Shown piece after piece: positions 27,473 to 29,401 of a stretch of DNA of 64,000 nt. The position numbers were made by a program, and so were the translations under genes. Positions within the stretch are counted from its first letter, which is position 1; the number at the start of each line of letters is the position of its first letter. The stretch is taken from positions 1 to 64,000 of the forward strand of contig NZ_QJKC01000014.1 of assembly GCF_003202035.1 (NCBI RefSeq). Reading direction: 5' to 3'. Source of the stretch: Aquitalea magnusonii (lineage in GTDB: Bacteria; Pseudomonadota; Gammaproteobacteria; Burkholderiales; Chromobacteriaceae). The notes beneath the pieces were generated by a model. It was not told where the DNA came from, did not search any database, and was given only the letters and a program-made list of their open reading frames with translations.

Positions 27473-29269
27473 TCAGACATTGCCTTGTGCCTTCACACGT
27501 TCCTGACGGTTGCTCAGCTTGTTGAGCGCCGACAGGTAAGCCTTGGCACTGGCGACAATCACATCGGTATCCGCGCCCTGGCCATTCACCACACGGCCAT
27601 CCTTGGCCAGCCGCACGGTGACTTCGCCCTGCGATTCGGTACCCTTGGTAATGGCATTGACCGAGTACAGTTCCAGTTCGGCCTGGCTGTTGACCGTGCT
27701 TTCGATGGCCTTGAAGGCGGCATCCACCGGGCCGGAGCCACTGGATTCGCAGCGCTTTTCCACGCCATGCTCGACAAACACGATGGCAGCCTGCGGTGCT
27801 TCGCCGGTTTCGGTATTCACCTTCAGCGACACGAACTTGTAGTCTTCCTGCAAGGTGGCCACCAGCTCGTCCGACACCAGTGCGTGCAGGTCTTCGTCGA
27901 AGATTTCACGCTTGCGGTCGGCCAGATCCTTGAAGCGGGCAAAAGCGGCGTTAAGCGCTTCTTCGCTGTCCAGCACGATGCCCAGATCGGTCAGCTTGGT
28001 CTTGAAGGCATTGCGACCGGACAATTTGCCCAGGGTCAGGCGGTTGGCACTCCAGCCCACGCTCTCTGCCGACATGATTTCATAGGTTTCGCGGTGCTTG
28101 AGCACGCCATCCTGGTGGATGCCGGATTCGTGGGCAAAGGCATTGGCACCGACGATGGCCTTGTTCGGCTGTACCGGATAGCCGGTCACCGTGGATACCA
28201 GCTTGGAAGCCGGCACGATCTGGGTGGCATCGATACGGGTTTCCACCGCAAAAATGTCCTTGCGGGTACGCACCGCCATGACGATCTCTTCCAGCGCGGC
28301 ATTACCGGCACGCTCGCCCAGACCGTTGATGGTGCATTCCACCTGACGGGCACCGCCCAATACGGCAGCCAGGCTGTTGGCCACGGCCATGCCCAGATCG
28401 TTGTGGCAATGGGCCGACCAGATCACCTTGTCGCCACCCGGCGTCTTGCTGATCAGCTCGCGGAAGAAGGCTTCGGTGGCACGCGGCACGGCGTAGCCCA
28501 CGGTATCCGGCACGTTCAGCGTGGTGGCGCCGGCCTTGATCACTTCGCCAAAGATGCGGGCGAGGAAGTCGATATCCGAGCGCAAGGCGTCTTCGGCGGA
28601 AAATTCGACATCATCGGTGTATTCACGCGCCAGCTTGACGGCCTTTACCGCAGCCTCCACCACCTCATCCGGCGTCATGCGCAGCTTCTTTTCCATATGG
28701 ATGGGGCTGGTGGCAATAAAGGTGTGGATGCGGCCACGGGCAGCCGGCTTGATGGCTTCACCGGCGGCGCGCACATCGCGCTCGTTGGCACGGGCCAGGC
28801 TACAGACGGTGGAATCCTTGATCACCTCGGCAATGGCGTGGATGGCATCGGCATCGCCCGGGCTGGCGGCAGCAAAGCCGGCCTCGATCACATCGACACC
28901 CAGACGTTCCAGCTGGCGGGCGATGCGGATCTTTTCTTCCTTGGTCATGGAAGCGCCCGGCGACTGCTCGCCATCACGCAAGGTGGTATCAAAAATGTAA
29001 AGACGGTCGCCCATGTCGAATGCTCTCCCTTGTCCCTGTGCTGCTGTCCCGGCTGCGTTCAGGTAATCGTTGAAATCGAATCTCTTGCCCTGGCTTGCCG
29101 CCAATTGCGCCAACTTGTTCAACTGCGCCAGCGGTAGGCTGCCGCGTTCTCTCCACTTGTAGACTGCTGCACGGCTGACCGGCTCATCGGGAAAAATCCG
29201 GCTCAGGCCTTCTGCCACCGCACCGGGGCCGCCCAGGTCGTCAATGAGTCGTTCAATGTCCAATTGCAT
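27473..29269 (-). CDS. leuA: 2-isopropylmalate synthase with N-terminal helix-turn-helix domain
   Basis: A 598-residue frame. Residues 1-70 ([20 protein letters not shown]..., then [24 protein letters not shown]) look like a phage Cro/CI or YdaS-type helix-turn-helix. After a short linker, residue 86 onward ([20 protein letters not shown]) is a full-length Leu[10 protein letters not shown] catalytic motif, [14 protein letters not shown] metal ligands, GLGERAGN, and the C-terminal leucine-sensing LeuA dimer domain. The ATG at 29269 has AGGAGC 7 nt upstream. The internal ATG at 29014 also has AGGGAGAG at good spacing and would give a standard 513-residue LeuA. Both forms may be made. LeuA condenses acetyl-CoA with 2-ketoisovalerate. 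Confidence 0.93.
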
Positions 29270-29297
29270 GTTGTGCTCCTGCAGCAAGTTTTGATTC

Positions 29298-29365
29298 AAT
29301 GTAGCGATTGGACGACATAACGTCAAACCCGCAGTGCAACATACGACAAAAATATCGTCAAACCT
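29298..29365 (-). promoter_or_regulatory. leuA promoter overlapped by a repeated GGTTTGACG element
   Basis: On the minus strand TTGACG (29321-29326) and TACATT (29298-29303) are separated by exactly 17 bp, a good sigma-70 promoter. GGTTTGACG followed by TGTCGT occurs twice (within 29311-29330 and 29343-29365). Each copy contains an inverted repeat, GACG-N6-CGTC or ACGA-N8-TCGT. The lower copy covers the -35 box, as expected of a repressor site. Confidence 0.6.
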
Positions 29366-29382
29366 GTGTCAAATTTACAATT

Positions 29383-29401
29383 ATTAGACATTAAGTCTAA
29401 T
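29383..29401. promoter_or_regulatory. 19-bp palindrome upstream of leuA
   Basis: ATTAGAC-ATTAA-GTCTAAT is a perfect 7+5+7 inverted repeat in AT-rich DNA about 60 bp upstream of the leuA -35 box. Its size suits a dimeric helix-turn-helix protein. The one fused to LeuA is an obvious candidate, but this is inference. Confidence 0.5.

Follow-up and report, generated by a model that had tools for sequence, protein, structure and literature searches.

The leuA gene of Aquitalea magnusonii very probably encodes an autoregulatory trigger enzyme that is made in two forms. It lies in the window, the 64,000-nucleotide stretch of DNA analysed here, as an open frame on the minus strand (27473–29269) of 598 amino acids and a stop, in which a phage-type helix-turn-helix (HTH) precedes a complete 2-isopropylmalate synthase (LeuA). 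Comparison between genomes argues for the fusion itself, for selection at the protein level, for a pair of candidate operators ahead of the gene, for loss of the operators together with the HTH and for selection on both translation starts.

How complete are the two parts of this protein? Residues 86–598 (513 aa) constitute a full-length 2-isopropylmalate synthase (NF002087, 901.6 bits). The bacterial LeuA profile TIGR00973 scores 694.6 bits against a cut-off of 598.7 and is matched over positions 1–494 of 494; the HMGL-like, HCS_D2 and LeuA_dimer domains are all present (PF08502, 128 bits, for the last). In this enzyme family the LeuA_dimer domain binds leucine, and the LeuA core is a dimer. 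Among solved LeuA structures, PDB 3rmj, which we take to be that of Neisseria meningitidis, comes closest to the window protein; its match begins at query residue 87, and it has no HTH. On the preceding 85 residues alone, the NCBIfam profile carph-isopro (NF046037) scores 70.7 bits (curated cut-off 38) over positions 1–54 of 54. The first-pass annotation had read the frame as a Cro/CI- or YdaS-like HTH placed before a complete 513-residue LeuA, and these scores bear it out. An enzyme domain and a domain of DNA-binding type are found within one chain, the arrangement of a trigger enzyme. The name carph-isopro presumably reflects carbamoyl-phosphate synthase and isopropylmalate synthase, to judge from the fusions found here.

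Structure prediction for residues 1–85, proposed earlier as a check, gave a five-helix HTH with a mean pLDDT of 81 (AlphaFold2; residues 73–85 fall below 50). In a fold search the solved structures nearest to this model are mostly lambda-repressor-like DNA-binding proteins. The family profile finds just two matches in the PDB, both weak: 5w8y, presumably a Cro-type protein, and the Cro protein 3bd1 (E 0.13 and 0.29). At 13.7 and 11.7 bits, the window HTH remains below the Pfam gathering scores of P22_Cro (PF14549, 30.2) and YdaS (PF15943, 30), and among 38 relatives these two profiles give weak matches in 32 (best E 4.2e-4) and 18, respectively. The putative recognition helix is nearly invariant, with A35, Y37, K38, W39, R40 and R42 identical in 38 sequences. 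Over 1085 pairs of loci, which are not independent of one another, pN/pS is 0.27 for the HTH, 0.75 for the linker and 0.19 for the start of LeuA. The value for the HTH indicates purifying selection, and we reject the idea that the domain is a decaying remnant. At another locus (L051, genome G043) there is a small protein that stands alone, matches the domain below threshold and is divergent to a CI-type repressor frame; the pair resembles the Cro/CI pair of a phage and is a plausible source of the domain.

Table 1. Features of the fused leuA gene and its upstream region in the window, and of the degenerate paralog in genome G236.
Feature	Positions	Strand	Basis
Long form, HTH–linker–LeuA, 598 aa	27473–29269	−	open frame; in-frame homologues in 35/36 domain-holding family genomes
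Short form from the inner ATG: LeuA only, 513 aa	27473–29014	−	inner Shine-Dalgarno; PDB 3rmj match
carph-isopro (Cro-like HTH) domain, residues 5–65	29075–29257	−	NF046037; predicted model; fold match
Putative recognition helix, residues 33–42	29144–29173	−	helix in AlphaFold2 model; invariant residues
Linker, residues 66–85, variable in sequence and length	29015–29074	−	pN/pS 0.75; low pLDDT at 73–85
Shine-Dalgarno AGGGAG for the inner start	29025–29030	−	conserved among loci
LeuA inner ATG	29012–29014	−	ATG kept in 65/65 loci
LeuA_dimer allosteric (leucine-binding) domain, residues 455–585	27515–27907	−	PF08502, 128 bits
Shine-Dalgarno AGGAGC for the outer start	29275–29280	−	Shine-Dalgarno word in 56/65 loci
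Distal candidate operator TTAGACTTAATGTCTAA, perfect match	29384–29400	−	the genome's only exact TTRGAC-N5-GTCYAA
Proximal candidate operator TTTGACGTTATGTCGTC, 8/10, 73 bp from distal	29311–29327	−	palindrome scan
Sigma-70-like promoter TTGACG-N17-TACATT	29298–29326	−	one found; shuffles give 0.5
Degenerate HTH–LeuA paralog before an intact isopropylmalate synthase gene	L131 1510–3174; L209 5210–8596		

How widely is the fusion kept? The domain occurs in 36 of the 37 genomes of the window's family, the exception being 61% complete, and in 35 of those 36 the HTH and LeuA share one frame. The remaining assembly, 80% complete, has frameshifts after the HTH and also inside LeuA; it is the family's one instance of a stop or frameshift between the two parts, the observation set beforehand as the refuter of the fusion. 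When 300 genomes were drawn from the order, 41 held the domain at E 1e-9 or better, 39 as LeuA fusions and 2 as RhuM fusions. A second family, which includes Neisseria, has LeuA in 78 of 83 genomes, and the alignment reaches window residues 1–3 in 76 of the 78; one exception (G726) is cut by a contig end, while the other (G200) truly has no HTH. Among the genera that carry the fusion are Aquitalea, Chromobacterium, Vogesella, Crenobacter, Iodobacter, Chitinibacter and Neisseria, presumably the Neisseriales. In a genus-level set, which overlaps with the family and order samples, the two parts are in frame in 79 of the 80 loci listed, of 96 matched. The search of related genomes for the same fusion, suggested by the first reading, found it in each of these samples. 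Conservation over many genera, together with an inner Shine-Dalgarno (SD) sequence far more frequent than in controls (below), argues that the arrangement is not due to chance. A chance extension of the frame is ruled out by that conservation, and an assembly artefact by the presence of the fusion in dozens of genomes.

Where does translation begin? The earlier reading had credited both ATGs with good SD sequences, and this holds: AGGAGC precedes the outer ATG at 29269 and AGGGAGAG the inner ATG at 29014. For the counts that follow, 70 matches were reduced to 65 distinct fused loci by removing duplicates; the frameshifted genome G018 (L043, L073, L076) was left out, and in L046, L047 and L084 the outer start was set at a GTG that follows the likely ATG by one or two codons. 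All 65 loci have an ATG at most 14 codons before the FDTT motif of LeuA. An SD word lies at the right distance from this inner start in 53 of the 65 and is missing in 12, as against 51 of 473 for the other in-frame ATGs of LeuA; codon-shuffled linkers provide one in 7.0 ± 2.4 of 65. For the outer start, 56 of 65 loci show an SD word. Mean anti-SD duplex energies are −6.9 kcal/mol for the inner start, −6.3 for the outer and −1.9 for the control ATGs. Among the loci the inner SD occurs in all three reading phases, which argues for conservation of an RNA signal rather than of a peptide motif. It is likewise present in 69 of the 79 in-frame loci of the genus-level set (Aquitalea, Chromobacterium, Neisseria and others). 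Since the inner SD is kept and the HTH is under purifying selection, the long and the short form both appear to be selected for, and the suggestion that the cell makes two products from one gene gains support from these comparisons. The fused LeuA of G700 (L177), outside the 65 loci, lacks the inner Met; its sites are weak and widely spaced.

What might the HTH recognize? Within 200 nt 5′ of the outer start, the palindrome TTNGAC-N5-GTCNAA is matched at 9/10 or better in 55 of the 65 fused loci, compared with 0.4 of 65 for shuffled sequences, and at 8/10 or better in all 65, compared with 5.6. Among 19 unfused leuA genes of the order, a set that leaves out L077, a paralog, and L074, the second part of a split LeuA, none has it at 9/10 or better; at 8/10, where the pattern is loose, it occurs in 1 of 19 within 200 nt and in 4 of 19 within 400 nt. 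The pattern was derived from the same loci in which it was counted. Fused loci outside the window's family reach at least 9 in 27 of 30 cases and at least 8 in 30 of 30; this count and the co-losses described below lessen, and do not remove, the circularity.

The usual number of sites is two per fused locus, with one over the −35 box, as in the window, where the −35 box of the promoter sits within the proximal candidate operator. At 8 or better, 53 loci have exactly two sites, 8 of the 65 have one and 4 have three; the single-site loci include five of the window's own genus (L031–L035), with a proximal site of 7/10. An extra half-site, TTTGAC, is present between the two sites of the window (29368–29373), and by eye many relatives have similar ones at roughly that position. 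In the 53 two-site loci the spacings cluster at 41, 53–54, 62–66, 71–76 and 83–84 bp. The means of these clusters are 3.9, 5.1, 6.1, 7.0 and 7.95 turns of 10.5 bp (P 0.0014 on five means, in a test that was devised after the spacings had been seen and that left out the 8 one-site and 4 three-site loci). Spacings near whole turns are expected if two dimers need the same face of the helix. Six further loci, read afterwards and outside this test, gave 82, 81, 81 and 74 bp (7.8, 7.7, 7.7 and 7.0 turns) in four, sites 113 bp apart in one and a single site in the other.

The strict form of the palindrome, TTRGAC-N5-GTCYAA, is found at a single place in the window's own genome, at leuA. In 41 genomes of the family it is found at 30 places, 16 of them at leuA; the other 14 compare with 12 places for the reversed control. 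With a single strict motif in the window genome and background numbers away from leuA, control looks local. A regulon was ruled out on the same grounds, the looser pattern giving 5 places in the window's genome against 11 for its reversed control. Three of the strict sites away from leuA recur, one in three genomes and two in two genomes each. One of these recurrent sites, the unrelated palindrome TTAGACCGGTCGTCTAA at L331 1501–1517, adjoins a gene that by eye is TetR-like, and the same sequence is present in G017, G029 and G030; it is probably that regulator's own site. In the window the promoter is downstream of the distal palindrome, and its −35 box is covered by the proximal one, so that neither would fall within that transcript; an RNA leader element is ruled out here. 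In some small-genome relatives (the four loci L172–L175) the second of the palindromes is close to the outer start codon or on it, 3′ of the likely promoter, and would be transcribed.

If the palindromes serve the HTH, what becomes of them where the HTH is lost? Mapped onto a tree of 51 LeuA proteins, whose root is not fixed, the distribution of the fusion takes three changes to explain, and a single gain with two losses is the simplest account. One loss is in G057 (L055), sister to the fused G103 with support of 100/99, where the best palindrome in 400 nt is 7/10. The other is in G200 (L170), which groups with fused relatives at 99/96 and has no palindrome of 8 or better in 520 nt; its fused relatives G749, G753 and G754 retain their sites. 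We conclude that the palindrome has been lost together with the HTH in two lineages, as far as these upstream sequences tell. The candidate operators track the HTH, as they would for a trigger enzyme acting on its own gene: 55 of 65 fused loci, 0 of 19 unfused and two co-losses. The first-pass annotation had suggested that a leucine-sensing enzyme bound to its own promoter would form a direct loop from pathway to gene. A pair of palindromes in the upstream region that it had named, their absence at 9/10 from the unfused genes and their loss with the HTH speak in favour of such a loop.

How could the two forms act? Translation from the outer ATG would yield HTH–LeuA and translation from the inner ATG would yield LeuA alone. 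Because the LeuA core is dimeric, it would set two HTH domains side by side, and the pair may bind the 17-bp palindromes TTRGAC-N5-GTCYAA of the leuA promoter. Of these, the proximal one overlaps the −35 box, and the distal one is about seven helical turns further upstream. Given that overlap and that distance, two bound dimers could touch on one face of the DNA or close a loop, and would thereby block RNA polymerase. The C-terminal LeuA_dimer domain would bind the end product leucine and is probably the switch, with leucine most likely a co-repressor. The inner start would supply enzyme free of DNA and so set the ratio of enzyme to repressor. DNA binding, repression and not activation, looping and leucine as the signal are the steps that we infer.

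A degenerate copy of the fusion is consistent with part of this scheme. Genome G236 carries a normal HTH–LeuA and, in addition, a paralog (P0002) with 36% identity to the window protein. Two parts of P0002 are retained, the HTH at 56 bits and the LeuA_dimer domain at 106; its LeuA scores lie far under the equivalog cut-offs (252.5 vs 729). The motif DTTLRDGEQ has become DASLRPAHL, and some 33 residues are missing opposite window residues 351–409; from these changes P0002 would be catalytically inactive. Its recognition-helix motif is the same as that of the LeuA fusions, and its upstream region has a candidate operator of the LeuA type, ATGGACACTTTGTCCAA. An intact isopropylmalate synthase of the other type begins 54 nt past its stop (NF002991, 894.8 bits; TIGR00970, 809.5 bits, cut-off 697.4). 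A paralog of this kind was found in 1 of the 6 genomes of G236's family. P0002 is a candidate leucine-sensing repressor.

Is the design confined to LeuA? In an alphaproteobacterial family, which we take to be Acetobacteraceae, the domain occurs in 94 of 100 genomes. The CarA sample comprised 35 loci (L102–L106, L178–L207), namely the best 30 of 98 matches and five from another search. The domain stands ahead of a CarA-like frame in all 33 loci parsed of the 34 given, and the profile confirms CarA for L102 (TIGR01368, 449 bits, cut-off 307). The palindrome TGGGAA-N5-TTCCCA is matched at 10/12 or better in 33 of the 35 loci, these being the best-scoring ones of the search. With L104 left out and L187 not parsed, 23 of 33 loci have two or more palindromes, mostly 37–40 bp apart, which is not a whole number of helical turns. 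A Met is present in the linker of 19 of 29 parsed loci (34 given, without L104, and 5 not parsed), 13 of the 19 with an SD, compared with 2 of 121 control ATGs. The short form is therefore not universal among the CarA fusions.

A class-V aminotransferase is headed by a related HTH in 31 of 250 genomes of the order. The enzyme part is nearest by profile to glyoxylate and other aminotransferases, below every curated cut-off; the HTH of L048 passes the Pfam gathering scores of YdaS (43.4 bits), P22_Cro and Phage_CI_repr. The fused loci (L048–L050, L210–L239) include domain matches without LeuA in G041, G046 and G048, for which noise was ruled out when they proved to be aminotransferase fusions. 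One locus was taken from each of 30 of the 31 genomes; 7 of the 30 had escaped the search pattern and were read separately, and L234 is cut before the linker Met. GTCAAA-N5-TTTGAC is matched at 10/12 or better in all 30 (23 + 7), again the best-scoring ones of the search. An SD precedes the inner start in 19 of 23 loci, as compared with 6 of 320 control ATGs, and likewise in 6 of 6 loci read in addition.

The palindromes of LeuA, CarA and the aminotransferase all consist of 6-bp arms about a 5-bp centre (17 bp), and cross-matching between the three is almost nil. With at most one mismatch allowed, 55 of 65 LeuA loci fit the LeuA pattern, and 0 and 3 fit the other two; among CarA loci 31 of 35 fit their own and 0 and 0 the others, and among aminotransferase loci 21 of 23 fit their own and 1 and 0 the others. 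The domain was also observed N-terminal to a RhuM-family protein in L127 and L129 (confirmed by profile for L127), and at the head of a mitofilin-like membrane protein in two genomes of the phylum (L100 and L101, by profile for L101). It seems likely to us that a Cro-like phage-type domain has been captured repeatedly, by LeuA, CarA and the class-V aminotransferase, each gaining a 17-bp operator of its own, such that enzyme, sensor and repressor are one gene. LeuA and the aminotransferase would have the internal start, and in one genome the enzyme half would have decayed to leave a leucine-sensing repressor, a natural path from enzyme to transcription factor.

Might the palindromes instead belong to another transcription factor, the HTH of LeuA contacting a protein or localizing the enzyme? 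Not every HTH of this fold binds DNA, that of RodZ being one that does not, and the presence of the domain on mitofilin-like membrane proteins in two genomes fits a role other than DNA binding. Yet palindrome and HTH vanish together in two lineages, three unrelated enzymes with such a domain each have their own 6-5-6 palindrome upstream, and the degenerate LeuA paralog shares both the recognition-helix motif and the type of operator with the LeuA fusions. Off leuA, moreover, the strict site is at background (14 vs 12 in 41 genomes), unlike that of a global regulator. We consider another factor quite improbable. Leucine may be dispensable even if the long form does bind its promoter, since Cro-like repressors need no ligand, and the circuit would then be a simple negative autoregulation of the amount of enzyme. 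This has an appreciable, if minor, chance of being right; against it, the pseudo-LeuA without catalytic motifs keeps its LeuA_dimer domain (106 bits), as expected if leucine sensing has been retained.

As to the number of products, it is conceivable that only the long form is made and that the inner ATG with its SD is a relic of the ancestral leuA start. The 10 of 29 parsed CarA fusions without a linker Met suggest that a form free of DNA is not always needed, and both the LeuA of G700 without an inner Met and the 12 of 65 LeuA loci without the SD word point the same way. We nevertheless hold this to be unlikely: despite a drifting linker (pN/pS 0.75), 53 of 65 loci retain the SD, which is read in all three frames, and the aminotransferase fusions behave likewise (19 of 23 vs 6 of 320 control ATGs). 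The converse, that only the short form is made and the HTH upstream is untranslated or a decaying remnant, would accord with 3rmj, the closest solved LeuA, which has no HTH. Purifying selection on the HTH, the outer SD word in 56 of 65 loci and the conserved operators make it very improbable indeed.

How does an autoregulatory LeuA made in two forms compare with known systems? PutA, BirA and NadR are trigger enzymes. PepA and PyrH, acting at carAB, are counted among them too, and trigger enzymes are described as carrying a second, unlinked regulatory function (PMC6245113). HTH–LeuA would resemble these five in that a metabolic enzyme controls gene expression, in several cases by DNA binding; it differs in that a phage-type domain has been added to the first committed enzyme of a pathway, in that the apparent target is its own gene and in having a second start for the DNA-free form. 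BzdR consists of an N-terminal HTH, a linker and a shikimate-kinase-like domain; it has lost catalysis, and its bifunctional intermediate was a laboratory chimera (PMC3602430). HTH–LeuA shares with BzdR an N-terminal DNA-binding domain, a linker and an enzyme-derived effector domain, and an end state of the BzdR kind is seen in the pseudo-LeuA of L131. The window LeuA scores above its equivalog cut-offs, so that by sequence no catalytic loss of the BzdR type is indicated, and the fusion looks like a natural intermediate that retains the enzyme. The phage Cro proteins of Xfaso 1, N15 and P22 are stand-alone repressors, unlike the fused HTH–LeuA. The window HTH is a member of carph-isopro (NF046037), which is there only a domain name; the operators, the dual starts and the regulatory role were worked out here.

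Trigger enzymes and HTH–enzyme chimeras such as BzdR are already known (PMC6245113, PMC3602430). A search largely confined to open-access papers found no description of the carph-isopro domain or of these fusions. The apparent novelty lies in a fusion that occurs in nature, is widely conserved and apparently targets its own gene; it sits on an enzyme under feedback control, has two starts and matched operators, and recurs on unrelated enzymes.

If this is true, Neisseria, Chromobacterium and their relatives could do without a separate regulator for leuA, since the enzyme would read its end product and act on its own promoter. There is a practical caution as well, in that a LeuA studied from the inner start, as in PDB 3rmj, would miss the regulatory half. 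Together with CarA in the alphaproteobacterial family and the aminotransferase in other families of the window's order, LeuA would define a general and testable class of self-regulating enzymes. Such fusions may also be the natural intermediates called for by the view that transcription factors descend from enzymes which recruited a DNA-binding domain.
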